Positions 1,822 to 33,461 of a stretch of 38,347 bases of DNA are shown here, piece by piece; within the stretch, counting starts at the first letter, position 1; every line of letters starts with the position of its first letter. Origin of the DNA: an uncultured Methanobrevibacter sp. (GTDB taxonomy: Archaea > Methanobacteriota > Methanobacteria > Methanobacteriales > Methanobacteriaceae). The notes under the pieces were generated by a model. It saw only the letters and a list, made by a program, of their open reading frames with translations. It was not told the origin of the DNA and ran no database searches. The position numbers and the translations under genes were made by a program. The DNA lies in contig CADAOO010000018.1 of NCBI GenBank assembly GCA_902789505.1, positions 1-38,347 of the forward strand, read 5' to 3'.

Positions 1822-1884
1822 GAAAAATTCACCTATTTCTAATTTACTGGTTAAAATCACACATTAAGTTAAAAGTTATTGAAG

Positions 1885-1980
1885 CACTACAATTGTGAAA
1901 TTGTAGATTCTTAGGTAATTCACGATAGAAGTGAAAATTGACTAAGCTATCCCCCATCTTCCCTAGGTTCTAATAATATC
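1885..1980. other. Structured segment between secE and spt5 (possible RNA element)
   Basis: The 272 bases between secE and spt5 contain no credible reading frame but show local structure. There is a perfect 8-bp hairpin with a four-base loop at 1887-1906 (CTACAATT / AATTGTAG). A second, two-part stem lies at 1910-1946: CTTAG/CTAAG outside and TTCAC/GTGAA inside, with a GATAGAA loop on the plus strand. Next to it is an unusually GC-rich patch (1948-1967). It could be a leader element for spt5-L11 or a small RNA on either strand; no known family is recognised. Confidence 0.4.
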
Positions 1981-2093
1981 ATATTGTTGATTTAAAACAC
2001 AACTTAACAAGTTGAAAATCTAAATCAAAAAAGATACAATAATTATTACAAAATTCTATTATAATTTAAATGGGCTTAAAAATGGTTTATGTT

Positions 2094-2273
2094 TTATAAA
2101 CCAATCAATGCTCCAAGTAAAAATACAACAAAACCAAGTACACCAACAATAACTACACCGAGTGATGTAACTTTAGCAAGCTCGAAATATTCTTGCTTGT
2201 CTGGCTTTTTTGATACTTTCAATACTCTTTTACTGTCTTTAACAAATTTATTAAAACTTTCTTGCACATTCAT
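2094..2273 (-). CDS. secE: Protein translocase subunit SecE (Sec61 gamma)
   Basis: A 59-residue protein beginning MNVQESFNKFVKDSKRVLKV. It has an amphipathic cytosolic helix (residues 5-33, including KPDKQEYFELAKVTSLG) and one C-terminal membrane helix (about 38-58, VVIVGVLGFVVFLLGALIGL). This is the archaeal SecE/Sec61-gamma architecture and size; it clamps the SecY channel. Position between ftsZ and spt5 is the conserved euryarchaeal location. Confidence 0.93.
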   Translation of the reverse strand: MNVQESFNKFVKDSKRVLKVSKKPDKQEYFELAKVTSLGVVIVGVLGFVVFLLGALIGL

Positions 2274-2405
2274 TTTAAATACCCAAAATTAAAAAAACTA
2301 TGAAACATAGTTTAATGAATTATAATAAAATAATAGTAATAAAATAATTTATATTTTAAACATTAATAAATGTTTGCATTTTAAGAAAAAAATAAAAAGA
2401 TAGAA

Positions 2406-3542
2406 TTAGAAAATTCCATCAATGAAATCATCTAATTGGTCTTTAGCTGATTCAGATTCAACATTTTCCTCAGCATATTCAATTTCTGGTTCATTAGCTG
2501 ATTCATAATCTGCATTAATTCCTGAAACAACCACAGTGGTCCTAACCATATTTTGAAGACTTTCATCAATTTGAGTACCCCAAATAATGTTGGCTTCAGG
2601 ATCTAATTTGTCAGCAACAACTTGAACGATTTTTTCAGCTTCGTGCAATGTTAAATCAGAACTACCAGTTATGTTAACCAAAGCGGCAGTAGCATTTGAA
2701 ATATCAATATCCAATAATGGACTGCTTAATGCTTCATGTACAGATTCTAAAGCTCTGTCTCCGGAATCTGATTCGCCCATACCAATCATAGCCATTCCAG
2801 AGCCACTCATGATACTTCTAATATCCGCGAAGTCCAAACTGATAAGACCTCTTTTGGTAATCAGTTCAGTGATTCCTTTAACAGCTCTGCCCAATATCTC
2901 ATCGGATACCATGAAAGCTTTGTTTAAAGGTAAATTTGGTGCAACTTCCAATAACTTATCATTAGGTATGATAATTACGGTATCTGCAGCTTCTTGAAGT
3001 TTTTCCAAACCTTGTTCTGCATTTTCCCTTCTTCTAATTCCTTCAGCAGAAAATGGTAAAGTTGCAACTGCAACAGTTAATGCGCCTAATTTTTTAGCTA
3101 ATTTGGAGATGATTGGAGCTGATCCTGTACCGGTTCCCCCACCAAGACCACAGGTGACAAATACCATATCTGCACCTACTAATTCCTCTCTAATTTCATC
3201 TTCACTTTCTTCAGCACATTCTTCACCTACAGCTGGCTCTCCACCTGCACCCAATCCTTTTGAAGTCTGTCTACCTAACAATATTTTTTTACTGGACTGG
3301 CTGTAAAATAAATCTTGAGCATCAGTATTGACGGCAATGGTTGTTGCCCCTTCAATACCCATCTCGTTTAATCTTGAAATAGTGTTGTTACCTGCTCCAC
3401 CAGCACCAACAACGAAAATTTTAGTTTTAACACCGTTCATTATGTCTGTAAGCTCTTCATCGATATCTGATGCGAGTTTATTTGGTGTTTTCTCTTCCAT
3501 TCTTTGTTCGGATTCTTTGATTGCATCATCTATAAATTTCAC
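2406..3542 (-). CDS. ftsZ: Cell division protein FtsZ
   Basis: A 378-residue tubulin-fold GTPase. The nucleotide-binding start [15 protein letters not shown] lies at about residues 44-58 and the tubulin signature [10 protein letters not shown] at 134-143. The T7-loop region and [15 protein letters not shown] follow, with an acidic variable C-terminal tail ([28 protein letters not shown]) likely to bind membrane-anchor partners. It polymerises into the division ring. The start is GTG at 3542 in front of [10 protein letters not shown], with GGGG upstream. It is the first gene of the ftsZ-secE-spt5-ribosomal block; the 123-bp upstream gap is very AT-rich and holds TATA-like sequence but no gene. 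Confidence 0.97.
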
Positions 3543-3665
3543 AAATTAACCCCACATACTCTGCTATTAAAATTAATTGTTAAATATTTCTATTGTAACT
3601 AATATTTAAATGCAACTCTTTTTAAAAAATATGAAAGAAATATTATATATTTCATAATATTTAAA

Positions 3666-4238
3666 TTAATCCCTTGGCATTGCAAGGATTTCATGGAACT
3701 CCAAATCGAAGAGATTTTTAGAATTGACCGGAGTTAAAATGACTGCAGTGTCAACGCCATGACCTCTTCCACCAATGGCAATGATCTCCTCACCGACAGG
3801 AATCAAACCTGCATCGGCAGCCATAATGGAAATTTCAGCTGATACTTTAACCCCATGAGAAAACATCCTGAGAGTATCTGCAACAATATCCAATGGAGAA
3901 TAACCACCGTATTTGTTGGTAACTCCTCTTGCAGCGCCGCTGAAAGCATGCAGTCCGAAGTATGTTACAATACCCAAATCCTCCAATTTTTTAATCATGT
4001 CTTCACTGATATCAGACTGGTTGGGTCCGCTAAAACCGCAGTTATGAGTAACATTAATTATCTTAACTTTATCGCCAACTGCATCAGCAAGCTTCAATGC
4101 TGACTTTCCGGATGCAGAAGCAATGACAATATGCTTAATGTTTTCACATTTGTCCAATTTATCACAAACCACTGAAATAAGTTCATCAGTGTAATCGTTT
4201 CCCTGTTCATCAAAATATGTTATGAATTTTCTTGCCAT
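3666..4238 (-). CDS. Pyruvate kinase C-terminal-like domain protein (COG1751 type)
   Basis: A 190-residue soluble protein resembling stand-alone pyruvate-kinase C-terminal (alpha/beta) domain proteins found in archaea. Visible features are an N-terminal alpha/beta unit with IVIASASGKSALKLADAVG (about 37-55), THNCGFSGPNQSDI (about 84-97), FSGAARGVTNKYGGYSPLDIVADTLRMFSHGVKV and the glycine-rich EEIIAIGGRGHGVDTAVILTP. There is no pyruvate kinase catalytic barrel. The family has no established function; the fold suggests effector or nucleotide binding. It is a single gene with its own upstream AT-rich region, divergent from the CofE-like gene. Confidence 0.8.
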   Translation of the reverse strand: MARKFITYFDEQGNDYTDELISVVCDKLDKCENIKHIVIASASGKSALKLADAVGDKVKIINVTHNCGFSGPNQSDISEDMIKKLEDLGIVTYFGLHAFSGAARGVTNKYGGYSPLDIVADTLRMFSHGVKVSAEISIMAADAGLIPVGEEIIAIGGRGHGVDTAVILTPVNSKNLFDLEFHEILAMPRD

Positions 4239-4318
4239 ACTTACACCTTCTAAAGTTATAAATTACATAAATCTAAATATTAATATTATATTAAACAACT
4301 AGTTTTAAAAAGATTTTT

Positions 4319-5182
4319 ATGACAAGCGAGGATATGAAAAATGTGAAACATGTTATCAATGGAGATTACATCGTAATTCCAATTGAGACAGGTTATATTA
4401 AGCCAAATGAAGATTTAAATCAGATTATACTCCCGGCAAAGGAACTGATGAAGGATGGAGATTATCTGGTAATAGCTGAAACACCCGTTTCAGTATCTCA
4501 AAACAGGCTGGTTGACGAATCTGAATACACACCATCACTAACCGCAAAATTCCTAACAACAGTCTGGAGCAAATATCTTTGGGGATACGCTTTGGGACCT
4601 CTTTTAGGAATTAAAAAAAGAACCATCAGAAATCTCAGAAAGCTGCCTGAAGAAACCAAGGCACATAAGGAAGTGGTTCTCCAATTATACGGATTGAAAC
4701 ATGCCCTAAAACCTGCTTCAGAAGCCGGAATTGACTTGAGTAATGCTCCGGGGTCATGTGTTTCCCTACTTCCAGAAAATCCCGAAAAAGTTGCAAAGGA
4801 AATTAAAAAAGAAATAGGAAAGGACATTATCGTTTTAATAATCGATACCGACGCAACATATATGAAAAACGGGAAATACTTCACAGGACTTCCAATAGCT
4901 ATCGACGGAATTGAATCCGATAAGGGCTTTTTCGGATATTTGAAAGGACAACTGTCTGAAAATATGGGATCAACACCCTTAGGATGTAGTGAAAAAATAA
5001 GTATTGAGAAGGGATTAAAAATGGCAAACATTGCGGAGGATTATCAAAAATCACTTTCAACTGAAATGAAAACAATCCATAGTGTCAAATCCGTCCTGGG
5101 TACTGAAATTGATGAAGTGACAATTGAAGCATTGGATTCCATAACACACACCCCCGCTGTAATAATTAGAAAAAAACAATGA
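4319..5182 (+). CDS. CofE-like protein (F420-0:L-glutamate ligase family)
   Basis: A 287-residue protein related to coenzyme F420-0:gamma-L-glutamyl ligase, which adds glutamates to F420. Family-like stretches are LMKDGDYLVIAETPVSVSQNRLV, SEAGIDLSNAPGSCVSLLPENPEKVAKEI (compare the AGIDxSN motif of CofE), IIVLIIDTDATY and a glycine-containing segment. The N-terminus and middle (WSKYLWGYALGPLLGIKKRT) differ from classical CofE, so it is probably a methanogen paralog with related but unproven activity. TATA-like sequence about 30-40 bases upstream and no clear Shine-Dalgarno suggest a leaderless or short-leader transcript; an in-frame ATG at 4334 is an alternative start. Confidence 0.7.
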   Translation: MTSEDMKNVKHVINGDYIVIPIETGYIKPNEDLNQIILPAKELMKDGDYLVIAETPVSVSQNRLVDESEYTPSLTAKFLTTVWSKYLWGYALGPLLGIKKRTIRNLRKLPEETKAHKEVVLQLYGLKHALKPASEAGIDLSNAPGSCVSLLPENPEKVAKEIKKEIGKDIIVLIIDTDATYMKNGKYFTGLPIAIDGIESDKGFFGYLKGQLSENMGSTPLGCSEKISIEKGLKMANIAEDYQKSLSTEMKTIHSVKSVLGTEIDEVTIEALDSITHTPAVIIRKKQ

Positions 5183-5337
5183 TTTTAAAAAAATGACTTT
5201 TAAATTAGTTATATTTTTATAATAAAAAAGATATATCTAAACATTAATTTTAATATATTATCATAAATTTTAGTTTATTTTTTAAATCTTCATTTTTAGA
5301 TGAAATATGATAATGAGATGTTTTAAGGGGAAATTAA

Positions 5338-6003
5338 ATGTTAAACAATCCATTAGTTAAGAAATTATTATCAAAAATCGTTGAAAAAGAACATGAAGAA
5401 ATCCTTAAAAAAAGATTTAAAGAAACATATCCCGATGAAGAAACACCTGATGGAATTGATAATCTCATACGAGCGTTAGAACTTCCTCCTGAAGAAATCC
5501 AATTCATTGCCAATGATATTAAAAAAACAGTGGAAGAAACAATAATTCCAATCATAAATTCATTAATAAATGGAACTGACACCGATGAAGAAATCGCCAA
5601 GGAAACCGGCATTAAATTGAATGTTGTCAGAAAAATATTGTACAAATTATATGATTTAAAAATTGCCAATTACAAAAGAAGCAAAGATCCTGAAACCCAG
5701 TGGTTTACATATTCCTGGAAATTTGAAAAAGAAGAACTGATTAAACAGGTTAGGGACGAATGCGAAAAAGATTTGAATACACTTAATCAGGAATTGGACA
5801 AAGAAGAAAACAACATGTTCTTCGTATGCCCTTACGGCCATATCCGATGCACATTTGACGAAGCTTCAGATGAAGAATTTTTATGTGAATGCGGAGAAGA
5901 ACTGGAATTCCAGGACAATTCCGAAATTATCGAACACATCAAATCAGCCATCAAAGAAACAGAAAGTGATTTAAATTCATTTACCGAAACAGTTGAACAA
6001 TAA
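5338..6003 (+). CDS. tfe: Transcription initiation factor E (TFE alpha)
   Basis: A 221-residue protein with a winged helix (about 66-130: NSLINGTDTDEEIAKETGIKLNVVRKILYKLYDLKIANYKR, then TQWFTYSWKF), a charged coiled-coil linker (about 131-157) and a zinc ribbon (C164, C171, C183, C185). TFE stabilises the open promoter complex with TBP, TFB and RNA polymerase. The first zinc knuckle is C-PYGHIR-C rather than the usual CxxC, while the second (CEC) is also compressed. N- and C-terminal tails make it longer than many archaeal TFEs. AAGGGGAA precedes the ATG. It is the first gene of an apparent operon with the HD and ArcS-like genes. Confidence 0.93.
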   Translation: MLNNPLVKKLLSKIVEKEHEEILKKRFKETYPDEETPDGIDNLIRALELPPEEIQFIANDIKKTVEETIIPIINSLINGTDTDEEIAKETGIKLNVVRKILYKLYDLKIANYKRSKDPETQWFTYSWKFEKEELIKQVRDECEKDLNTLNQELDKEENNMFFVCPYGHIRCTFDEASDEEFLCECGEELEFQDNSEIIEHIKSAIKETESDLNSFTETVEQ

Positions 6004-6010
6004 GATAAAA

Positions 6011-6502
6011 ATGGAAATTGAATTACTTAAAAAGGAAAATACCCCTGAAAATGTTATAGATCATTCACTGGCAGTTTATAAAAAGGCTATGGAAATAGCT
6101 GCTAATTTTGATGATGCAGACAAAGACCTTATCAGGAAAGGTGCTTTACTGCATGATATCGGAAGGTCAAAAACCCATGGCATAACCCATGCAATCGAAG
6201 GCGTTGAAATTGCTAAAAAGTACGGTTATGGCGAAGACGTTTTGAATATTATAGAAAGGCACATCGGTGCTGGAATTACAGAAAGCGAAGCTGAAAAATT
6301 AGGCCTTCCCGTAAAGTCATACTTACCTGAAACCCTTGAAGAGAAAATTGTAGCTCATGCCGATAATTTAACCAGCGGCAGCAAGGAAGTGGATATCGAT
6401 TTTGTCATGAAAAAATGGAAAAGAAGAATTGATGACAGCGAAGACAACATTGAAAGACTGATTAGGTTAGATGATGAATTAATAAAAGCTTTTGAGGAAT
6501 AA
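6011..6502 (+). CDS. HD-domain (HDIG) protein, TIGR00295-like
   Basis: A 163-residue metal-dependent phosphohydrolase-fold protein. Metal ligands are visible in the order expected for HD proteins: H near the N-terminus (NVIDHSLAV), LLHDIGRSKTHGITHAIEGVEIAK, RHIGAGIT and a late aspartate (AHADNLTSG). This compact archaeal family has no firmly known substrate. I start at the ATG at 6011, seven bases after the tfe stop; a TTG further upstream would overlap tfe. One base separates its stop codon from the next ATG, so it is almost certainly co-transcribed with tfe and the ArcS-like gene. Confidence 0.85.
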   Translation: MEIELLKKENTPENVIDHSLAVYKKAMEIAANFDDADKDLIRKGALLHDIGRSKTHGITHAIEGVEIAKKYGYGEDVLNIIERHIGAGITESEAEKLGLPVKSYLPETLEEKIVAHADNLTSGSKEVDIDFVMKKWKRRIDDSEDNIERLIRLDDELIKAFEE

Positions 6503-6503
6503 T

Positions 6504-7412
6504 ATGAAAGTAATATGTTCAAGTGAAGAGTCTTTATACCGTCCTGAGGCGGTCAGATGGAGACAAAGAATGGAAATGATGAAACCTCTTGGAGATACTG
6601 TTGTTTTACTGCCATGCAGTATGAAAAAACCTTATTCTAATTCAAAATCCCATCAGAAGTTCAGAAAAATTACAAGATCATTTCAGGAACTCATCGTCAC
6701 ATCCCCTTTCGGAATCTGCCCTAGGGAACTTGAAAACACCTTTCCGATACAGTCATATGATGTAAGCACTACAGGTTCCTGGTCACAGGATGAGATTGAC
6801 GAAAGCGGAAAATTGATCAAAAAATACACTGAAGGTAAAACCGTGATTGCCAATCTCAGCGGAGGATATCTGGAAAGCTGCCAGCAGTATGTTGATGAAT
6901 TCATCAATGTCTGCGAGGACGGCAGACCGACATCTCCTGATTCCCTTTACAACCTGAGGATGGAACTCAAAAATCATCAAAGGGTGAACCGAAAAGAAAA
7001 GACCCTTCATGAATTGAGGTCCATTGCGATGTATCAGTTCGGTGAAGATGCATATGACTTCATTCCGGACAACGTTAAAACCAAGGGAATGTATCACAAA
7101 AGAATACTTTCAGATGGAAAGCAATTGGCTTTACTCAACAAGGACCACGGATTGTTCAGGTTGAATTTGCCCGGCGGAGAAATTCTGAAGGATTTGGGAA
7201 TTAATATAGTTGAGATCGATTTTGATTTGCAAACCAATACAGTATTTGCCCCTGGAATCCAAAAGGCAGACCACAACATCATTCCGAATGACGAAGTGGT
7301 TGTCGTTAAGGACAGGGAAGTTGTCGGAGTCGGCAAGGCCATAATGACCGGCCGTGAAATGGAGGAATGCACAAACGGCATAGGCGTCAAGATAAAACAT
7401 AGAGTCAAATGA
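6504..7412 (+). CDS. Archaeosine synthase-like protein (ArcS core plus PUA), short form
   Basis: A 302-residue protein. The segment VVLLPCSMKKPYSNSKSHQKF (about 33-53) matches the catalytic-domain signature of archaeosine synthase (ArcS/TgtA2, DUF5591), which converts preQ0 at tRNA position 15 towards archaeosine. The C-terminal 80 residues (MYHKRILSDGKQLALLNKDHGLFRLNLPGGEIL ... NDEVVVVKDREVVGVGKAIMTGREM) are a PUA RNA-binding domain. Classical ArcS is nearly twice as long because of an N-terminal TGT-like region that is absent here, so this is a reduced or split form. GAGGA lies 6 bases before the ATG. It is the third gene after tfe and the HD gene. A candidate preQ0 importer is encoded at 23369-24001. 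Confidence 0.75.
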   Translation: MKVICSSEESLYRPEAVRWRQRMEMMKPLGDTVVLLPCSMKKPYSNSKSHQKFRKITRSFQELIVTSPFGICPRELENTFPIQSYDVSTTGSWSQDEIDESGKLIKKYTEGKTVIANLSGGYLESCQQYVDEFINVCEDGRPTSPDSLYNLRMELKNHQRVNRKEKTLHELRSIAMYQFGEDAYDFIPDNVKTKGMYHKRILSDGKQLALLNKDHGLFRLNLPGGEILKDLGINIVEIDFDLQTNTVFAPGIQKADHNIIPNDEVVVVKDREVVGVGKAIMTGREMEECTNGIGVKIKHRVK

Positions 7413-7440
7413 AATTTAATTTTAACACATACTAACAAAA

Positions 7441-7451
7441 CATATATAAAT
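7441..7451 (+). promoter_or_regulatory. TATA box of the MIP18-family gene
   Basis: The sequence CATATATAAAT lies about 50 bases before the ATG at 7501, preceded by an A-rich stretch that could serve as BRE. Transcription would begin around 7470-7475, leaving a short leader that carries the ribosome-binding site AGGAGA at 7488-7493. Confidence 0.5.
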
Positions 7452-7500
7452 ACCCTAAACTAATAAGTATTAAATACAATAAAAAATAGGAGACTAAATT

Positions 7501-7785
7501 ATGTCAGAAGATTTAGTAAATGATATTAAAGACGCTATTTATGTGATTAATGACCCACATATGGGAATAAGCATTGTAGAAATGGGTATTGTACAAGATA
7601 TCGCTGTAAACGGTGATCAAGCTGAAATTACACTCAAACCTACCAATCCAGGATGCATGAGTATTACCCGTATTGCTGCTGATGCTAAAATCAGAGCTGA
7701 AAATGTTGAAGGCATTGAAAAAGCAAAAATTATCGTTGAAGGACATGCTATGGCAGACTCCATTAACGAAATGATTAACAGATAA
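7501..7785 (+). CDS. MIP18-family (DUF59) iron-sulfur assembly protein
   Basis: A 94-residue protein of the MIP18/DUF59 family. VINDPHMGISIVEMGIVQDIAV (about 17-38) is the family signature, and GCMSITRIAADAKIRAENVEG contains the conserved cysteine that replaces the second cysteine-rich motif. Relatives (SufT, CIA2) help mature Fe-S proteins, a heavy demand in methanogens. It is a single gene with a clear TATA box and AGGAGA ribosome-binding site; the stop codon is followed by a T-rich stretch and an inverted repeat that may end transcription. Confidence 0.9.
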   Translation: MSEDLVNDIKDAIYVINDPHMGISIVEMGIVQDIAVNGDQAEITLKPTNPGCMSITRIAADAKIRAENVEGIEKAKIIVEGHAMADSINEMINR

Positions 7786-24085: not shown

Positions 24086-24484
24086 ATGGAAATCACAGAC
24101 GACAAATTATTAAGAATAGCTTTGGTTACTTCCCTTATCGGAATTATAGGTCTGATAATCTTTACCCCTACAATCGAAGTTAAAAAAATTGATATTGAAG
24201 ACATCAACCGGGGAATGATTGATGAAGAGGTAAAAATAGATGGTGTCATTCAGGACATTTCGCAGTCCAGTTCAAAAAGCAGCTATTTTTTAACTGTAAA
24301 CGACGGTACAGGCCAGATTCCCCTGATTATCTTCGAAAGTCAGGCGGTGGAAATCCAGTCCAACAGCTTTGACATTGATGACTTTAAAGGCAGGAAAGTT
24401 GAGGTTGTCGGCAAAATCACCGAATACAATTCGCAGCTGGAACTGATATTGACTTCGGGAGACAATCTTAAACTAACAAAATAA
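24086..24484 (+). CDS. Membrane-anchored OB-fold protein
   Basis: A 132-residue protein with one N-terminal membrane helix (about 10-27, IALVTSLIGIIGLIIFTP). An OB-fold follows (about 45-130): GMIDEEVKIDGVIQDISQSSSKSSYFLTVNDGTGQIPLIIFES ... FKGRKVEVVGKITEYNSQLELILTSGDNLKL. This looks like the nucleic-acid-binding tRNA_anti-type OB domain on the outside or inside of the membrane. Function unknown. It is 61 bases ahead of the phosphohexomutase on the same strand. Confidence 0.75.
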   Translation: MEITDDKLLRIALVTSLIGIIGLIIFTPTIEVKKIDIEDINRGMIDEEVKIDGVIQDISQSSSKSSYFLTVNDGTGQIPLIIFESQAVEIQSNSFDIDDFKGRKVEVVGKITEYNSQLELILTSGDNLKLTK

Positions 24485-24545
24485 ATAGCTATTTATTTAT
24501 TGAACGCCAAAAATGATAGTAATAAAATATATAGGATTTAATAAA

Positions 24546-25910
24546 ATGTCTGACAAGAAACGATTATTTGGAACATTTGGAGTTAGGAGAACTGCAAATG
24601 ATGTTTTAACTCCGGAGTTTGCATCAAGACTTGCCGCCTGTTACGGAACCCAAATTCAAGGTACCGTAGCGGTTGGTGGAGACACAAGAACATCTTCCCC
24701 AATGTTAATGGAAGCCGTTAAGGCGGGACTTTTATCATCCGGATGTGACGTAGTGGATTTGGGAATATTGCCAACACCTGCCGTCCAATATGCTGTTCGC
24801 AAATATTATGACGGTGGAGTTATGATTACCGCATCACACAACCCTCCAAAATATAATGGCCTTAAGTTTTTAGATGAATTCGGTATTGGAATACCTGATG
24901 AAATGGATATTGCAATCGAAAAGTTATACTTCGATGAAGAGCCGAAAAGAGCCCACTGGTCTGAAATTGGAAAATTATATAAAAACGACAAGATAATCGA
25001 CGAATACATTGACGAGGCGATTTCCAAAGTGGACACCGAAGCCATCAAAGAAGCAAAATTAAAAGTAGTGGTGGACTGCGGTTCCGGTGCAGGATCATAC
25101 ACCGCACCTTATCTGATTAGAAAACTCGGATGCGACGTGACAACACTCAATTGTCAGGCGGACGGATTTTTCCCAGGCCGTGACCCTGAACCGATTGAAG
25201 AGAACCTGCAAGAACTGATTAGTGTCGTGAAGGAACTTGATGCAGACATAGGCCTTGCACACGACGGTGATGCCGACAGAACAATCTGCATTGACGAGAA
25301 GGGAAACTTCGTTTTAGGAGACAAAACATTCACACTCGTCGAAAAACAAATGCTTAAGGAAAACAATGGAGGAACAATTGTTACAACAGTTGCAACTTCA
25401 CAGGCCATTTATGACATTGCAGAGGAATACAACGGAAAAGTGATAGCTACTGCCGTTGGAGATTTGCTTGTAGCACGTAAACTTAAAGATGAAAACGGCT
25501 TATTTGGTGGAGAAGAAAACGGAGGTTTGATTTTCCCGGATTTCGTTTACGGAAGAGATGCCGTAATGACTGTGGCCAAGATTTTGGAAATTGTGGCCAA
25601 AGAGAAAAAAACACTGTCCGAACTGGTCAGCGAACTTCCGGTATATTATGCAAGCAAAATGAAAATTGAATGTCCTGATGACGAAAAGGAATTTGTCATG
25701 AACAGTATCGCTGAAGAAATCAAAACAACAACAGACTTTAAACTTGACTTAACAGACGGCGTTAAAATCCTAAAAGAGGATGGCTGGGTAATCATAAGAC
25801 CATCCGGTACAGAACCTATTTTCAGATGCTTTGCCGAGTCCGACTCACAGGAAAAAGCAGATGAAATGACTGAATGGGGATTGGATTTGATTAAAAAATA
25901 CAAAAAATAA
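24546..25910 (+). CDS. Phosphohexomutase (phosphoglucosamine/phosphomannomutase), paralog 1
   Basis: A 454-residue alpha-D-phosphohexomutase. It starts MSDKKRLFGTFGVRR. The active-site serine is Ser97 in TASHNPPKYNG, the metal loop is DGDADRTIC, sugar recognition is GGEENGGLIFP and the phosphate site RPSGTEPIFRCFAES. It isomerises hexose 1- and 6-phosphates. GEENGG rather than GEPSGT differs from the second paralog at 32124-33461, suggesting a different sugar preference (GlcN, Man or Glc). AGGAT precedes ATG 24546; an upstream in-frame ATG at 24513 has no such support. Confidence 0.9.
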   Translation: MSDKKRLFGTFGVRRTANDVLTPEFASRLAACYGTQIQGTVAVGGDTRTSSPMLMEAVKAGLLSSGCDVVDLGILPTPAVQYAVRKYYDGGVMITASHNPPKYNGLKFLDEFGIGIPDEMDIAIEKLYFDEEPKRAHWSEIGKLYKNDKIIDEYIDEAISKVDTEAIKEAKLKVVVDCGSGAGSYTAPYLIRKLGCDVTTLNCQADGFFPGRDPEPIEENLQELISVVKELDADIGLAHDGDADRTICIDEKGNFVLGDKTFTLVEKQMLKENNGGTIVTTVATSQAIYDIAEEYNGKVIATAVGDLLVARKLKDENGLFGGEENGGLIFPDFVYGRDAVMTVAKILEIVAKEKKTLSELVSELPVYYASKMKIECPDDEKEFVMNSIAEEIKTTTDFKLDLTDGVKILKEDGWVIIRPSGTEPIFRCFAESDSQEKADEMTEWGLDLIKKYKK

Positions 25911-26083: not shown

Positions 26084-27220
26084 CTAAAAGTTTTCCAAAC
26101 ATTCTTCTTTTAAGAAAAATGCATCCTCATTATCCGGGTTTCTAAGCAATACCTTATTGAAACTATCAACGGCCTCTTCAAATTTGCCCAGCTCCATTAA
26201 AACAACACCTTTATTCAGCAAAAAGTCAATGTTGTACTTTTCCAAATCAATAGCTTTATTGAAACATTCCAAAGCATCATCCAGCCTGCCCAAATCAATG
26301 AAAGCATTTCCCATCCTATTTATAGCCGAAGCATCCATTTCAGAATCATCCAAACAGACTTCAACCGCTTTGTTGAATGAATCGACAGCATCTTCAAGTC
26401 TGCCCATATCGCTCAGCAGGTTGCCTCTTGCATTCCAAACTTCAGGATTTTCACCATCAATGACTATGAGCTTGTCGTAAATTCTCAATGCCTGATCATA
26501 ACGGCCCAGAATTTCCAGAATAAAACCTCTCCAGTAGAGAACAATTGGACTGCTTGGTGTGAAATTATAGGCAATTGTGCTGGCCTTGTATGCCTCGTTA
26601 ATGTTTCCGGAGTTTAAAAGGGCAATAGCCTTGTTATTTAAAATATAAACATTGTCCGGCTCTATCTCCAATGCCTTGTCATAGCATTCTATGGCATCTA
26701 TAAATCTCCCCAGCCTGGAAAGATTGTCGCCCTGCTTGTTGAGCAGATAAACATCATTCGGATCAAGCCTTAATGCGGCATCATAACACATGGTTGACTT
26801 ATCAAACTTACCGCTGTCAAAGAGAATGTCCGCCCTTTTCATTATCATCGCTTTTTCATCTATCTTGTCACCTTTCCAATCGTCTATGTCAAGCTTTTCA
26901 AAATAGATTATTTGAAATTTCTCGTCACTGTCAATTTTACCGCCATACATCTTTTTAAACTCTTTCAACATTTCTTTAGAGTCTTTGAAACCTTCCTGTA
27001 CGGCCAATTCATCGTTTCCTTCAATTTCACTAAATGAAATATCCTCAACATCTGTGACAATAGCTTCAAAGATTTTCATTTTTTCCTTTGAAACCAGATT
27101 CCAGTAACAGTAAAGCCGGTCACCTTTTTTAAGGGGTGTCTTCCAAGTCTTACGAATGGTTCTGGTTTTTTTACCAGTAATCACATCAATATCATTACTT
27201 GAAAACGATAAAATTGGCAT
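26084..27220 (-). CDS. ASCH domain fused to TPR repeats
   Basis: A 378-residue two-part protein. Residues 1-112 are an ASCH (PUA-like) domain: GKKTRTIRKTWKTPLKKGDRLYCYW, then KIFEAIVTDVEDISFSEIEGNDELAVQEGFKDSKEMLKEFKKMYG, with the typical DVxxIxF and EGFxSxxE motifs. Residues about 120-378 are seven or so tetratricopeptide repeats (for example LLNKQGDNLSRLGRFIDAIECYDKALEIEPDN). ASCH domains bind RNA or modified nucleosides and some are RNases; TPRs bind proteins. Single-domain ASCH proteins are common but this fusion is unusual. It is the last gene of an operon with the radical SAM, HisC, gamma-CA and GlmU-like genes, 11 bases behind the radical SAM gene. Confidence 0.85.
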   Translation of the reverse strand: MPILSFSSNDIDVITGKKTRTIRKTWKTPLKKGDRLYCYWNLVSKEKMKIFEAIVTDVEDISFSEIEGNDELAVQEGFKDSKEMLKEFKKMYGGKIDSDEKFQIIYFEKLDIDDWKGDKIDEKAMIMKRADILFDSGKFDKSTMCYDAALRLDPNDVYLLNKQGDNLSRLGRFIDAIECYDKALEIEPDNVYILNNKAIALLNSGNINEAYKASTIAYNFTPSSPIVLYWRGFILEILGRYDQALRIYDKLIVIDGENPEVWNARGNLLSDMGRLEDAVDSFNKAVEVCLDDSEMDASAINRMGNAFIDLGRLDDALECFNKAIDLEKYNIDFLLNKGVVLMELGKFEEAVDSFNKVLLRNPDNEDAFFLKEECLENF

Positions 27221-27231
27221 TACGACACTCC

Positions 27232-27939
27232 CTAAATGATTTCCTCTCCAAATTCTGCACTTTTTACCTTAACCTGACCCTCAAAATATGGTTTAAGTTC
27301 CTCAGCCAATTTCCGCAGGTCATGAGGATTTGGAACTTCAACCTTTTCAAGAGCGGGATCCAATACATTCTTGTTTCTGAATTGCTGGATTGTGTAAATA
27401 TCCCCTTTTATTTCATCAACAAGATTGAGCATGTCCTTTTTGGTGTGCAATGTAGGAACATAAGTTGTCCTGAGCTCCAAATGAACATTTGAATCATCAT
27501 TGATTAATTTCATGGATTTTTTAACATTGAAACCTACATTGGCTCCTGTAATTTTTCTGTATTTTGAAAATGTTGTTTTTACGTCAAGTGAAACATAATC
27601 CAACAATTTCAAATCCAGAAGTTCCCTTATTTTATCAGGATAGATTCCGCTGGTATCTAGCTTGGTTTTTAAACCTATCTTACGGACATGCTTTAGAATT
27701 TCAATTACTGCATCCGTTTGAACCAGAGGTTCCCCTCCGGATATTACAACCGCATCCAAAAAATCGGCTGAAGAGTCAATTTCAGAAATTACCTTCTCCA
27801 GTGACCATTCAGTATTGTCCTCCAGCAGTTCAACATTATGACAATACCTGCAGGCCAGAGGACATTTTGACATGAAAATAACCAGAGACATGTTTCCATG
27901 AAATTCAACAGAGGATATTACTGTTCCGCCAATATACAT
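27232..27939 (-). CDS. Radical SAM activating protein (NrdG-like)
   Basis: A 235-residue radical SAM protein. The cluster motif CPLACRYC has Cys26, Cys30 and Cys33; GGEPL follows at about 70 (VVISGGEPLVQ). It resembles the NrdG2-type activators of anaerobic ribonucleotide reductase, which generate the glycyl radical in NrdD. No nrdD is in the window, so it could serve a distant NrdD or another glycyl enzyme. Its ATG directly abuts the hisC stop codon, so it is in the same operon. Confidence 0.85.
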   Translation of the reverse strand: MYIGGTVISSVEFHGNMSLVIFMSKCPLACRYCHNVELLEDNTEWSLEKVISEIDSSADFLDAVVISGGEPLVQTDAVIEILKHVRKIGLKTKLDTSGIYPDKIRELLDLKLLDYVSLDVKTTFSKYRKITGANVGFNVKKSMKLINDDSNVHLELRTTYVPTLHTKKDMLNLVDEIKGDIYTIQQFRNKNVLDPALEKVEVPNPHDLRKLAEELKPYFEGQVKVKSAEFGEEII

Positions 27940-29040
27940 TTAACTTAAAACCTCTTTTATTATATCGATAAATTTCTTATCTTCTTCAAGGGTGCAAATA
28001 CTTATCCTAATCCAGTATTCATCCAATCCCTTAAATGAAGTACAATCCCTTACAATGATTCCGCGTTTCATTAATTCCAAAGCCAACTGGGATGCAGTAA
28101 AACCAGTATCCCTTATGCCAATCAGCATGAAGTTGGATTTTGACGGGAATACATTGAGCGAATCGATTTTTGATAATTCATCATATAAATATTGTCTTGA
28201 TTCTATTCCTTTCCTGATTGATTCTTCGATGTATTCTGTGTCTCTGAATGTATTGAGAGCCGCAACAAAAGACAATCTTGTAAGTGAAAATACCGGTTTG
28301 ATTCTGTGCATATATTCAATAATCTCACTGCAAGCCAAACCGTAACCGATTCTCATTCCTGCAAGCCCCAAAACTTTAGACATTGTGCGGATAATGAAAA
28401 TGTTATTGAATTCGTTGATCAAATCCTTGTTGGTGACTTCTGAGTATTCGAAGTAAGCCTCATCAACAACAACCAGTATGTCCGGATTTTTAGAAGCTAT
28501 ATCGGCTAAAACATCTTTTTGGATTAATGTTCCTGTAGGATTATTCGGACTGCAGAGGAAAATCATTTTTGTCCTCTCCCCGATAGCTTCAAAAATCGAA
28601 TCCACATCCAATTCGTTTTTATCCAAATCCCATTTTGCATAAACCGGACGTGCCCCATATTGCTGCAGTAAATATTCATAGTACATATATGAAGGCAAAG
28701 GCACTATGAATTCATCGCCCTCGTCAATGAATGTTTTAGCCAGAACATCAATGATTTCATCAGCACCATCTCCTCCGACAATCACCTGACTGTCCTCAAC
28801 TCCACTATATCTGGCCATTTCACTAACCAGTTCCTTGAGCTGGGATTCGGGATATCGGTTAATTGATGGGATTTCCTTTTTAATAGCTTCCATCGCTTTT
28901 GGAGACGGACCCCATGGGTTTTCGTTTGATCCCAATTTAATGATTTCATCCTTTTTTAAATTGAATTCCTGAGCGATTTCGTCCTGTGACCTTCCGGGAA
29001 CATAAGAATCCATTTCATCTACAATTCGTCTTGGTTTCAT
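27940..29040 (-). CDS. hisC: Histidinol-phosphate aminotransferase HisC
   Basis: A 366-residue fold-type I aminotransferase. PLP is held by Lys222 in [42 protein letters not shown] and [10 protein letters not shown] are HisC signatures, and the C-terminal arginine is in EYWIRISI. It makes histidinol phosphate from imidazole acetol phosphate with glutamate. Three bases separate it from the gamma-carbonic-anhydrase gene upstream, and the radical SAM gene follows with no gap. It is separated from other his genes, as is common in methanogens. Confidence 0.95.
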
Positions 29041-29043
29041 ATT

Positions 29044-29526
29044 TTAGTCTTCCTTATACTGTTTGGAAAGTTTTACATAATTTTCAGCATTTTTCTGAAT
29101 GAGTTCAATCTGTTCGGGAGTAACTTCTTTGACTGCTTTAGCCGGAACTCCCAATATCAGGCTGCCTTCCGGGAATTCCTTTCCTTCACTTACGACAGCA
29201 CCCGCACCTACGATTGAATTCTTGGATATGTGTGCACCATTTAAAACGGTAGCGTTCATTCCAATCAAGACATTATCGTCGAGCTTGCATCCGTGAACAA
29301 CAGCACCGTGGCCTATTGATACGTTGTCTCCAACTTCAACCGGAAATCCACGAGTACAATGAACAACGCAATTATCCTGTACATTGGAATTGTCACCTAT
29401 AGTGATGGAGTCAGTATCTCCCCTGACAACTGCTCCGTGCCATATGGAGACATTTTCTCCCAATTCAACATCACCTAATACCTGTGCACCTGGGCATATT
29501 ACAATAGAGTCTTTTTTATTTTCCAT
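29044..29526 (-). CDS. Gamma-carbonic anhydrase family protein
   Basis: A 160-residue left-handed beta-helix hexapeptide-repeat protein. The three zinc-ligand positions are visible: His56 (NCVVHC), His73 (SIGHGAVV) and His78 (VVHGC), plus Arg36-Asp38 (VVRGDTD) and a C-terminal helix. This is the Cam/YrdA-type family, so it may hydrate CO2, though many members have no proven activity. Thirteen bases separate it from the GlmU-like gene and three from hisC. Confidence 0.92.
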   Translation of the reverse strand: MENKKDSIVICPGAQVLGDVELGENVSIWHGAVVRGDTDSITIGDNSNVQDNCVVHCTRGFPVEVGDNVSIGHGAVVHGCKLDDNVLIGMNATVLNGAHISKNSIVGAGAVVSEGKEFPEGSLILGVPAKAVKEVTPEQIELIQKNAENYVKLSKQYKED

Positions 29527-29539
29527 AATATCGCCATAG

Positions 29540-30820
29540 TTATTTTTTCTTATTTTTATCTTGTATGATATGATTTTGTTTTACTAATACGCGTGTATCA
29601 GAGGGTACATCATCATATAACAAAACCCCTGAACCGATAGTGGCATTGTGCCCTACCTTTACACCCGGAGAAAAGCTTGAGTTGATACCTGTCTTTACTG
29701 AATCTCCGATAATGGAACCGAGCTTACGCCTTCCGCTGTCAATCATCTGATTTTTGATTTTTGTCTTTACTGACTGGTTGTCAAATCGCAGGTTGGCAAT
29801 GTTTGTTCCTGCAGCTATGTTACAGTTGGATCCGATGACTGAATCTCCAACGTAACTCAAATGGCTGACATTGGTATTTTCCATGATGATGGAATTCTTA
29901 ATTTCAACAGCATTTCCCACCTGAACATTGTCTCCAAAGTAGGAATTACCACGAATATATGAATTAGGACCAATATCACAGTTTTTACCAATGTAAACAT
30001 TGCCTTCAATGTATACTCCTGCCCTGATTATGCTTCCTTCATCCAAAAAGATTTCACCGTGGATGTGTGCGCCGCCTTCAATTTTACCCCTTATTTCTGT
30101 TTTTAATTTGCTGATCAATTCCTCGTTAACTTCAATCAGCTCCCAAGGGCGACCTACATCAATCCAATCCTTATTGGTCTTATGGCCAATTACCTTTTTG
30201 CCGTCAGCAATCTGCATTGAAAGGGAATCGGTAATTTCATATTCTCCCCTTTCCGAAATTTCGGTTTTCTTGATTTTTTCAAATATGTCCTTGTCGAAGA
30301 TATATATTCCTGTGTTGATTAAATTACTTGGCTCTTCACCCTTTTTAGGTTTTTCTACAATGCTTTTTACATTTCCATCTTCTATTTCAACAACCCCAAA
30401 GGCAGACGGATTGTCCACTTCTGTTAAAACCATCAAAGTGTCGGGATTCAGATAATTGTATTTCTTGATGATTTCACCAATGATTTCATCATCAAGGATG
30501 ATATCACCATTCAAAACTATCAGACTATCCTCAATAAAATCTTCCCCATAGGAAATTGCATTTGCAGTTCCAAGGAAATCCTTTTGGGTTTTATAAGATA
30601 TTTTGACGCCGAAATCACTACCGTCACCAAAGTAATCACGAACCATTTCCTCTTTATACCGCACTATCAACAGAATGTCTGTAATTCCATTGTTTCTTAA
30701 TGATTCTATGTTATATTGGATAATTGGTTTTCCGGCAACTGGTAACATGGTCTTAGGCTTAGTAAGTGTTAATGGCCTCATTCTGGACCCTTCACCAGCA
30801 CTTAAAATTATTGCTTTCAT
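29540..30820 (-). CDS. Bifunctional GlmU-like sugar-phosphate nucleotidyltransferase/acetyltransferase
   Basis: A 426-residue two-domain enzyme. The N-terminal nucleotidyltransferase has LSAGEGSRMRPLTLTKPKTM (6-25), the UTP/metal loop LIVLNGDIILDD (about 96-107) and VEKP. From about 240 it is a left-handed beta-helix acetyltransferase (AHIHGEIFLDEGSIIRAGVYIEGNVYIGKNCDIGPNSYIRGNSYF). It probably makes UDP-GlcNAc from GlcN-1-P, feeding pseudomurein and glycan synthesis with GlmM (32124-33461). First gene of the five-gene operon that runs down to 26084; the 173-bp upstream region shared with rubredoxin holds TATA-like sequence only. Confidence 0.9.
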   Translation of the reverse strand: MKAIILSAGEGSRMRPLTLTKPKTMLPVAGKPIIQYNIESLRNNGITDILLIVRYKEEMVRDYFGDGSDFGVKISYKTQKDFLGTANAISYGEDFIEDSLIVLNGDIILDDEIIGEIIKKYNYLNPDTLMVLTEVDNPSAFGVVEIEDGNVKSIVEKPKKGEEPSNLINTGIYIFDKDIFEKIKKTEISERGEYEITDSLSMQIADGKKVIGHKTNKDWIDVGRPWELIEVNEELISKLKTEIRGKIEGGAHIHGEIFLDEGSIIRAGVYIEGNVYIGKNCDIGPNSYIRGNSYFGDNVQVGNAVEIKNSIIMENTNVSHLSYVGDSVIGSNCNIAAGTNIANLRFDNQSVKTKIKNQMIDSGRRKLGSIIGDSVKTGINSSFSPGVKVGHNATIGSGVLLYDDVPSDTRVLVKQNHIIQDKNKKK

Positions 30821-31322: not shown

Positions 31323-32039
31323 ATGAATAGAACAAAAAAATTAATAATAGCCATCCTTCTTGTAATTCTTGCCGGATTATTGGTTGTTATTTTTGGAGCA
31401 TTATTTATGACTCCCGATTTAACTCTAGAAAGTAAGACCATATTGGTGTTAGCTTCAGATAAAACCGAACAGCCTAACGGTTCTGTTGATATGGCATACA
31501 TGGTCCGTCTGGAAAATGGATCACTTAAAAACTACACACCGGTATATCCTGGTGGAATGACACATCCAACACAGCCCGCACCGGGCGGTCTTAGCGGAAA
31601 GATGTTCCTGCATGACTGTCTATGGGACGGAACGAACCAAGGTATGGAGTATGCAAAAGAGATAGTGGCAGCAAATACTGGAATGCAGGCTGACGCAGTG
31701 GTTGTCGTTTATGATGAAGGTCTTGATGCAGTAATCGATTCAATCAGACCTCTCGTAGTGGACGGTGAAGTAACCAACCTCAGCGCAACAGACATCGTCC
31801 GTTCAAATGATGCATATAACGGTTATCCCGGCAGCGAAAATGTTCAAGGAAACATGTCCAGAGGAGATGCCGTGATGGTATTGGCTAAAGCTATTGCTAA
31901 CGCTACCAAAGATCCTAATAAGAAAAGTACAATGGTGCAAGTAGCATTGGATCAGTATTCCAAAGGCAACATCATTATGAAGCCTGAAGGGTCATTTACA
32001 AAATTGCTTGCTACAAAAGGATTTGAAAAATTAGGTTAG
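31323..32039 (+). CDS. DUF4012-like membrane-anchored protein
   Basis: A 238-residue protein with a short basic N-terminus (MNRTKK), one membrane helix (about 7-29) and an outside domain. The outside part ILVLASDKTEQPNGSVDMAYMVRLENGSLKNYTPVYPGGMTHPTQPAPGGL and the following ADAVVVVYDEGLDAVIDSIRPLVVDGEVTNLSATDIVRSNDAY resemble DUF4012, a family distantly related to LytR-CpsA-Psr domains. Those bacterial enzymes attach polymers to the cell wall; here the role is unknown. Two N-glycosylation-type sequons are visible (NGSV/NGSL). Leader of about 50 nt, own terminator downstream. Confidence 0.65.
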   Translation: MNRTKKLIIAILLVILAGLLVVIFGALFMTPDLTLESKTILVLASDKTEQPNGSVDMAYMVRLENGSLKNYTPVYPGGMTHPTQPAPGGLSGKMFLHDCLWDGTNQGMEYAKEIVAANTGMQADAVVVVYDEGLDAVIDSIRPLVVDGEVTNLSATDIVRSNDAYNGYPGSENVQGNMSRGDAVMVLAKAIANATKDPNKKSTMVQVALDQYSKGNIIMKPEGSFTKLLATKGFEKLG

Positions 32040-32123: not shown

Positions 32124-33461
32124 CTATAAGTTTTCATTAATTATTTTTACGCATGTTTCCTTAATGGATTCGGCTCTTTTTTGGTTTCTTGACTCCAAAG
32201 TTATTCTGACATAGTCTTCAGTTCCGGAAGGTCTCACCAATACCCAGCTGTCATCTTCGAAAGTCAATCTAACGCCGTCGATTGAATTGATGTCACGGAT
32301 GTCATCAAAAGCGCCGGTGAGCAACTCCTCCATGTTTTCCATGACTTTGACTTTTGCCTCCTTAGAGCAGGTTATTTTTTCACGGATGTTTGGATACTGC
32401 GGAATCTGGGCAAGCAAATCAGATAATTTGCCGTCTCTTGAAACAATTTCCGCCATTCTTAAACCTGAAAGTATTCCATCAGGACACATGCAGAAATCCG
32501 GATGCAGCCATGTTCCGGACGGTTCGCCTCCGAAGCTTGCGTCTTTTTCTATGATGACTTCGGCCACGTTAACATCCCCGACAGGTGTCCTCAGAACTTC
32601 ACCGTTTACTGATTCATCCATGCATAATCCGGCATCCACTGTTGTTACAATATCTCCATCGAACTCTTTTGCTATCAAAGCAAGCAAAGAGTCAAATGGT
32701 GAAATATTACCTTTTTCATCAACAGTTATCATCCTATCCGCATCACCGTCATGAGCTATTCCAAGGTCTGCACCAATAGCCACGACAGTTTTCATTAATG
32801 TCTGAAGATTATCTGCATTAGGTTCAGGGTTTCTCCCAGGGAAAAATCCGTCAGGCTGGGAATTGAGTGTAGTGACTTCACATCCCGCTTTTCTAAATAC
32901 TAAAGGTGATATTTCGCTTCCTGCACCGGATGCGCAGTCAATAACCACTTTAAGACCTGGTTTGATGTTCACCATGCTGACCAAGTCATCAATATACTGC
33001 CCTTTGATTTCCTCATTGACGCTTAATGTACCTACATTATCCCATGATACTGAAATGTAATCCTTATTGGCATATATTTCTTCGATTTCGGCTTCCTGAG
33101 CTGAGGTATATGCCATGGCATTCCTATTCCACAATTTAATTCCATTATACTGGGAAGGGTTATGGGATGCTGTAAGCATCACTCCGGCATCGGCACCCAA
33201 TTTTTCAGTGGCATAACCGACTAAAGGAGTTGGAACCATACCTATCTTAATTACATCCACTCCGCTTTCAAGCAAACCTGCACATATAGCCTGGTCAAGC
33301 ATCTTGTTGGTTGTTCTTGTATCATAACCCAAAACAACAGTTCCTTCGTTACCCAGATAATAAGCTAAGGATTTACCTACATTCAATGCAAGTTCACATG
33401 TTACTTCAGAACCTATTTTTCCACGGATTCCGGATGTGCCGAAGAGTTTTTTAGCTGCCAT
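32124..33461 (-). CDS. glmM: Phosphoglucosamine mutase GlmM
   Basis: A 445-residue alpha-D-phosphohexomutase. It starts MAAKKLFGTSGIRGK. The active-site serine is Ser99 in TASHNPSQYNG, the metal loop AHDGDADRMI, the sugar-recognition loop GGEPSGTW and the phosphate site RPSGTEDYVRI. The GEPSGT loop is typical of archaeal GlmM, which makes glucosamine-1-phosphate for UDP-GlcNAc. Eight bases lie between the apgM stop and this ATG, with AGGTGATGG as ribosome-binding site. It is the paralog of 24546-25910. Confidence 0.93.
   Translation of the reverse strand: MAAKKLFGTSGIRGKIGSEVTCELALNVGKSLAYYLGNEGTVVLGYDTRTTNKMLDQAICAGLLESGVDVIKIGMVPTPLVGYATEKLGADAGVMLTASHNPSQYNGIKLWNRNAMAYTSAQEAEIEEIYANKDYISVSWDNVGTLSVNEEIKGQYIDDLVSMVNIKPGLKVVIDCASGAGSEISPLVFRKAGCEVTTLNSQPDGFFPGRNPEPNADNLQTLMKTVVAIGADLGIAHDGDADRMITVDEKGNISPFDSLLALIAKEFDGDIVTTVDAGLCMDESVNGEVLRTPVGDVNVAEVIIEKDASFGGEPSGTWLHPDFCMCPDGILSGLRMAEIVSRDGKLSDLLAQIPQYPNIREKITCSKEAKVKVMENMEELLTGAFDDIRDINSIDGVRLTFEDDSWVLVRPSGTEDYVRITLESRNQKRAESIKETCVKIINENL

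Follow-up and report, generated by a model that had tools for sequence, protein, structure and literature searches.

A conserved ASCH-TPR fusion protein beside nrdG2 in Methanobacteriales, a candidate non-catalytic adaptor

An operon of an uncultured Methanobrevibacter sp. ends in a gene whose product carries an ASCH domain in front of a series of TPRs, which raises the question of what such a protein binds with either part and which cellular system it serves. The gene lies within a stretch of 38,347 nucleotides (contig CADAOO010000018.1 of assembly GCA_902789505.1), referred to here as the window. On its minus strand, the gene order is glmU, hexapeptide protein, hisC, nrdG2, and ASCH-TPR, separated by 13, 3, 0, and 11 nt as computed from the coordinates. 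The operon opens with an archaeal glmU-type nucleotidyl/acetyltransferase gene (29540–30820; TIGR03992, 542 bits, cut-off 292), followed by a gene for a hexapeptide-repeat (gamma carbonic anhydrase-like) protein (29044–29526; Pfam Hexapep match, NF050158 below cut-off), hisC (27940–29040; TIGR01141, 366 bits, cut-off 276.6), nrdG2, encoding a radical SAM activase of class III ribonucleotide reductase (27232–27939; TIGR02495, 169.8 bits, cut-off 131.15), and finally the ASCH-TPR gene (26084–27220; a 378-aa ORF with an ATG start). An earlier sequence-only reading of this DNA had placed the gene at the end of a biosynthetic operon, and this holds, given that glmU, hisC, and nrdG2 pass their NCBIfam cut-offs and the gaps are short. 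The element GGGAG (27228–27232, minus strand) overlaps the nrdG2 stop codon TAG (27232–27234) by one base; akin purine-rich stretches precede ASCH-TPR in most of 40 loci. Judged from its sequence and position, GGGAG suggests a Shine–Dalgarno element and translational coupling of nrdG2 and ASCH-TPR.

Several flanking genes merit a brief description. Downstream of the operon and convergent with it lies glmM (24513–25910), which passes the archaeal GlmM cut-off. The operon is thereby flanked by two phosphoglucosamine mutase-like genes, the second of which (32124–33461) was assigned by its match to counterparts in related loci. Just before glmM, positions 24086–24484 encode a protein of 132 aa that matches PF01336 (OB-fold nucleic-acid-binding) and has, by eye, an N-terminal membrane-like stretch. 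Upstream of the operon, on the opposite strand, positions 31323–32039 encode a protein of 238 aa that matches DUF4012 and whose N-terminal stretch looks signal- or anchor-like by eye.

The ASCH-TPR protein can be divided into four regions, all encoded on the minus strand: (i) an ASCH (PUA-like) domain, residues 1–112 (26885–27220); (ii) a linker, residues 113–121 (26858–26884), in which W115, G117, and I120 are constant among 93 homologs; (iii) seven TPRs, residues 122–363 (26132–26857), delimited by the AlphaFold2 model, Pfam, and conservation by TPR position; and (iv) a C-terminal capping helix, residues 365–377 (26090–26128), seen in the same model. Built from 41 orthologs, the AlphaFold2 model of the whole protein has a mean pLDDT of 89.7 and a pTM of 0.67, so the angle between the ASCH and TPR parts is uncertain. 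In the model, a mixed alpha/beta head precedes exactly seven tandem 34-residue helix pairs (122–135/139–152 through 331–343/347–360), while Pfam TPR_1 scores 161 bits (E 1.7e-48) over six stretches. Pfam ASCH (PF04266) matches residues 12–110 at 40.1 bits, above its cut-off of 21.2 (E 6.4e-10), bearing out the proposal of an N-terminal ASCH domain followed by about seven TPRs.

The predicted structure of residues 1–112 has an ASCH/PUA-like fold, the outcome that the sequence-only reading had staked itself on. Modeled alone, the ASCH part has a pLDDT of 83.0, and ASCH structures rank first in its Foldseek search, the top match being E. coli YqfB (E 3.5e-6). Structural matching gave a Z-score of 10.8 for YqfB (rmsd 2.6 Å over 100 residues), followed by 9.8 for PH0355, and Z-scores of 4–5 for EVE and YTH structures, a level that may mean little according to the tool. 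No ASCH protein was retrieved by a PDB sequence search with the ASCH part alone; a PDB profile search returned YqfB as the best match (E 0.019). The signature motif, defined as GxKxxxxR in the available text of PMC5615036, is present as G16-x-K18-x4-R23 in the octapeptide GKKTRTIR (G16–R23; 27152–27175, minus strand; from the alignment of 93 homologs). The domain thus belongs to the ASCH superfamily by a Pfam match above cut-off, by the motif, and by a PUA-like beta-barrel fold.

How widespread is this combination? We searched 101 Methanobacteriales genomes, namely the source genome and 100 others (G001–G100) drawn from 149 relatives, with the ASCH part as query; 97 were positive, usually with one copy. 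By profile search, ASCH-TPR was present in 144/150 genomes of the order, and in 89 of the 90 whose completeness is 90% or higher and whose contamination is 5% or lower. Genomes without it include G012, G173, and G194, which are 75%, 68%, and 84% complete, respectively. Relatives in named records come from Methanobrevibacter, Methanosphaera, and other Methanobacteriaceae. Open frames around the ASCH match are near full length in nearly all genomes of the order, the exceptions being short frames of 167–216 aa in G005, G075, and G172, which lie at contig ends as far as checked. From the conserved MPI start, 41 aligned proteins measure 376–378 aa. The idea that two separate genes are fused only in this assembly is refuted: the parts are fused throughout Methanobacteriales, and an assembly artifact is ruled out.

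Outside the order, the same domain order was absent from all 48 related genomes searched, eight of which have weak ASCH matches (E 5e-8 to 8e-4) in frames of at most 291 aa. Similarly, among 196 genomes of another archaeal phylum, a PF04266 search detected matches in 62 and no ASCH-TPR fusion. The ASCH frames listed for that phylum are short except for three of 270, 565, and 667 aa; read by eye, these three contain no TPRs, and their partner regions are restriction-specificity-like, acetyltransferase-like, or not recognizable. Within the archaeal genomes sampled, ASCH-TPR is order-specific.

Conservation was analyzed in 93 distinct sequences, obtained from 132 hits among which several loci duplicate each other. 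Frames shorter than 340 aa were excluded (L069, at a contig end, and L133, for which the ORF caller gave a short frame). One retained member, L121 (genome G099, family f2), has its ASCH-TPR gene in two pieces, apparently through a frameshift around residue 32. The ASCH and TPR parts are equally conserved (3.25 and 3.22 bits, respectively), and dN/dS is 0.02–0.06 in the five of eight half-gene comparisons with unsaturated dS. ASCH-TPR is kept under strong purifying selection. Taken together, order-wide presence, near-constant length, and low dN/dS indicate that the fusion is old in the order and strongly selected.

Within the head, T21 and R23 never vary among homologs with a residue there, while K18 is lysine in 77 and arginine in 15 of the 92 homologs with a residue at that position. 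A family-specific segment, C38-Y39-W40-N41-x-x-S44-K45-x-x-x-K49 (27074–27109, minus strand), spans a strand end and a basic loop, the latter modeled with low confidence in both the whole protein and the ASCH part alone. C38, Y39, W40, S44, K45, and K49 are constant in 93/93 homologs, as are E52, W115, G117, and I120. From this pattern we infer that these ten residues mark a family-specific ligand site and interface. The invariant cysteines C38, C145, and C374, considered as a metal site, are widely separated in sequence.

The close resemblance to YqfB raises the possibility that the protein is an N4-acylcytidine (ac4C) amidohydrolase mounted on a TPR scaffold and active in cytidine salvage. 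Fold and profile comparisons both rank YqfB first among PDB entries, and K18, T21, R23, E76, and Y92 of the window protein correspond to YqfB K21, T24, R26, E74, and Y89, the E76 and Y92 pairings being a reading of the alignment. In YqfB, Lys21 is the proposed base, Thr24 the nucleophile, and Glu74 the acid, and Asp27 and His70 are conserved; replacing K21, T24, or R26 with alanine eliminates activity, and the E74 alanine variant is 100- to 1000-fold less active (PMC6972931, available text). The window protein has the complete Lys-Thr-Glu triad, but its orthologs do not retain it consistently: besides the 15 arginines at K18, position 76 holds glutamate in 71 homologs, aspartate in 13, and leucine in 9. 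Equivalents of Asp27 and His70 are absent from the family, whose members have K or R at the former position (residue 24) and L, I, V, M, F, or T, mostly L, at the latter (residue 72). Moreover, the RNA cytidine acetyltransferase domain PF13718, the ac4C writer, was found in none of 14 genomes (the source genome and 12 further Methanobacteriales, plus G101, from another order of the same class), while three of 14 control genomes, those of E. coli, Haloferax, and Sulfolobus, have it. A YqfB-like reaction is unlikely as the family-wide function because the triad drifts and the writer domain was found in none of those 14 genomes. Ac4C hydrolysis was dropped as the main reading on these two grounds, and we consider it improbable.

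A second catalytic possibility is a single-strand-specific ribonuclease like ZmASCH of Zymomonas, whose active residues are Tyr47, Lys53, and Ser128 according to the available text of PMC5615036. ZmASCH shares superfamily and fold with the ASCH head, but the match (Z 7.2) is weaker than that for YqfB, and a ribonuclease of this type seems to us highly improbable.

The TPR part offers a second set of clues. Positions 2, 5, 9, 12, and 13 of each repeat, which we take to line the groove, average 3.60 bits, close to the 3.65 bits of the positions that we take to be structural and above the 2.96 bits of the remainder. Among 20,000 random picks of non-structural positions, 61 equaled the groove positions in conservation; restricted to helix A, 42 of 252 picks did so, which is not exceptional. 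The inner helix face of the TPRs is conserved as judged by these alignments, with the inner-groove positions most conserved in TPR1–TPR3. The most constant groove residues are K123, A130, F134, N161, D165, R169, N195, and I199 in TPR1–TPR3, and Y229 and E236 in TPR4. The net charge of the TPR part is −19. This pattern fits a peptide or protein held close to the ASCH head, as far as sequence conservation can tell.

We favor a lineage-specific, non-catalytic adaptor, with the class III ribonucleotide reductase system as its client. An adaptor is favored by the ASCH/PUA-like fold, the equal conservation of both parts, and the low dN/dS; by groove positions as conserved as structural ones; and by the drift of the YqfB catalytic Lys and Glu while T21, R23, C38, Y39, W40, S44, K45, and K49 stay fixed. 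In general terms, such an adaptor would do three things. (i) The pocket behind the GxKxxTxR motif, with the family-specific basic loop, would bind a nucleotide, nucleoside, or RNA. (ii) The concave groove of the seven-TPR superhelix would hold a protein, mainly through TPR1–TPR4 beside the ASCH domain. (iii) The adaptor would aid assembly of its client, or tune the client according to the ligand, the likeliest client being the class III system, either NrdG2, encoded just upstream, or NrdD. Domains, model, fold match, and conservation all support the general idea, already voiced from the sequence, that a scaffold for protein contacts carries a binding module; for this anatomy alone, a ligand-reading head joined to a protein-holding groove, we would put the probability well above one half.

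The choice of client rests on genome context. In 37 of 39 assessable loci, which are not phylogenetically independent, nrdG2 is the immediate same-strand upstream gene of ASCH-TPR (40 loci, L095–L134, were inspected; L111 starts too close to a contig end to be judged). The earlier view that the neighbors offer no obvious explanation was therefore too pessimistic: one of them, nrdG2, is persistent. Both genes were measurable in 38 loci, where they always share a strand (38/38) at a median gap of 18 nt; the gap is at most 55 nt in 29/38, and misread starts may account for the handful of wider gaps and for a single negative value. The pair is broken in few genomes: the two genes are 4.8 kb apart in G072 and on separate contigs in G069 and G084. 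NrdG2 itself is found in 97/101 Methanobacteriales genomes, mostly in single copy, and the copies of the window, G101, and Methanosphaera pass the equivalog cut-off.

The pairing can be compared with the situation outside the class, where at least 16 of 28 genomes with an NrdG2 match have it less than 2 kb from an NrdD match (G102, G104, G108, G114, G116, G119, G124–G127, G129, G135, G136, G140, G144, and G147). This proximity to nrdD in distant archaea associates the NrdG2 family with class III ribonucleotide reductase. In Methanobacteriales, the close neighbor of nrdG2 is ASCH-TPR instead of nrdD. NrdD of the source genome passes the equivalog cut-off and is encoded on a different contig from ASCH-TPR; no activase was recognized by eye beside its gene among ORFs of at least 100 aa, from about 5 kb before to about 8 kb after it. 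As a side observation, on contig C1 of G000 (L169, positions 1884–7720), nrdD (772 aa) directly follows a 1099-aa gene that by eye reads like the DNA polymerase D large subunit, a possible tie of DNA precursor synthesis to replication.

An RNR client is favored because nrdG2 lies directly upstream, because NrdG2 is mostly single-copy, and because no activase was seen beside NrdD. Against it, the operon also carries hisC and glmU, and the position of ASCH-TPR may reflect convenience. The locus of G101 bears on the same point: it reads glmM-glmU-hisC-nrdG2, followed by a gene that looks ribosomal-protein-like by eye, and lacks both ASCH-TPR and a hexapeptide gene beside nrdG2. Because G101 keeps nrdG2 in an operon of similar make-up that lacks ASCH-TPR, NrdG2 can function without the fusion protein. 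Given G101, the few broken pairs, and the non-independence of the linkage counts, we assign the adaptor with an RNR client a probability of about one in three. The more specific version, a dedicated RNR accessory or sensor in which the ASCH domain would read a nucleotide or RNA signal and the TPRs would dock NrdG or NrdD, coupling the activation of dNTP synthesis to that signal, we hold to be rather unlikely.

Joint absence of NrdD, NrdG2, and ASCH-TPR was weighed as support for the link to RNR and rejected. G073 and G078, placed in Methanobacteriaceae, lack all three; both have McrA. In G073, a class II reductase was found, and NrdD gave no match. Their best glmU/glmM matches reach 28–36% identity, compared with 57–64% in G101, and since close glmU and glmM are absent too, these absences were left unused. 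Together with G040, which is likewise placed in Methanobacteriaceae, also lacks ASCH-TPR and close glmU and glmM, and gave no glmM match at E 1e-30, they are possibly misplaced, contaminated, or very divergent bins.

The same gene neighborhoods weigh on two further readings. In one, the TPRs would scaffold a different operon-encoded enzyme, be it HisC, GlmU, or the hexapeptide protein, and the ASCH domain would sense a nucleotide or a nucleotide sugar. The operon order is conserved in most loci, as this would predict, but nrdG2 and ASCH-TPR stay paired in Methanosphaera (L131, L132) while hisC and the hexapeptide gene run on the opposite strand there, and G084 keeps hexapeptide, hisC, and nrdG2 together without ASCH-TPR; we give this reading little credence. 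In the other, the same two-part binder would serve translation or RNA handling: the ASCH domain would bind tRNA, rRNA, or mRNA, the TPRs would recruit a ribosome- or RNA-processing factor, and the operon position would be incidental. The general RNA binding of PUA and ASCH domains (PMC7641849 and PMC5615036, available text), the constant basic residues of the family-specific loop, and the near-universal presence of the gene in Methanobacteriales all speak for it. However, the persistent neighbor is nrdG2 rather than any translation gene, and YqfB analogs show no native-looking RNA binding in the available text of PMC9599836. We see a role in RNA handling as a substantial, though doubtful, prospect.

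ASCH and TPR domains are each known already. In the literature searched, which excludes the founding ASCH paper (Iyer et al.) and most subscription journals, no mention was found of their combination, its order-wide conservation, or the nrdG2 pairing; the same search found no description of the Methanobacteriales protein and no accessory protein for an archaeal class III ribonucleotide reductase. ASCH-TPR is a core gene of a whole methanogen order, gut and rumen species included. If the link to NrdG/NrdD is true, the protein would be an extra control point in the DNA precursor synthesis of strict anaerobes; if it is false, ASCH-TPR would still, to judge by its sequence, be a conserved adaptor with a head of nucleotide- or RNA-binding type.

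Among known systems, E. coli YqfB (ac4C amidohydrolase; PDB 9kyf, 9kyh, and 1te7) has the fold of the ASCH part, and the K, T, and R of its octapeptide recur in the window protein. Yet YqfB is a 103-aa protein without TPRs, whereas ASCH-TPR is a 378-aa TPR fusion that lacks D27 and H70 and does not keep the triad Lys and Glu family-wide. Stand-alone archaeal ASCH proteins (PH0355, 2z0t; PF0470, 1xne; PF0455, 1s04) also share the fold of the head, and ASCH relatives in other archaea have a similar octapeptide, but these are single-domain proteins, in frames of mostly 100–200 aa, without TPRs. Zymomonas ZmASCH, an ssRNA ribonuclease of the same superfamily and fold, likewise differs from ASCH-TPR in that its description, in the available text of PMC5615036, mentions no TPRs. 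In L171 and L172, from the other archaeal phylum, ASCH is an N-terminal module as in ASCH-TPR, but the partners, by eye a type I restriction specificity-like and an acetyltransferase-like region, are of restriction/defense type rather than TPRs; an ASCH-HsdS fusion has been reported (PMC7641849, available text). TPR proteins dominate the Foldseek matches of the whole model, for instance, the eight-repeat CTPR 8chy (E 5.3e-16) and the TPR domain of O-GlcNAc transferase 1w3b (E 7.2e-14). ASCH-TPR has the TPR fold in common with these superhelices and differs from them in its build of seven repeats, a cap, and an ASCH head.
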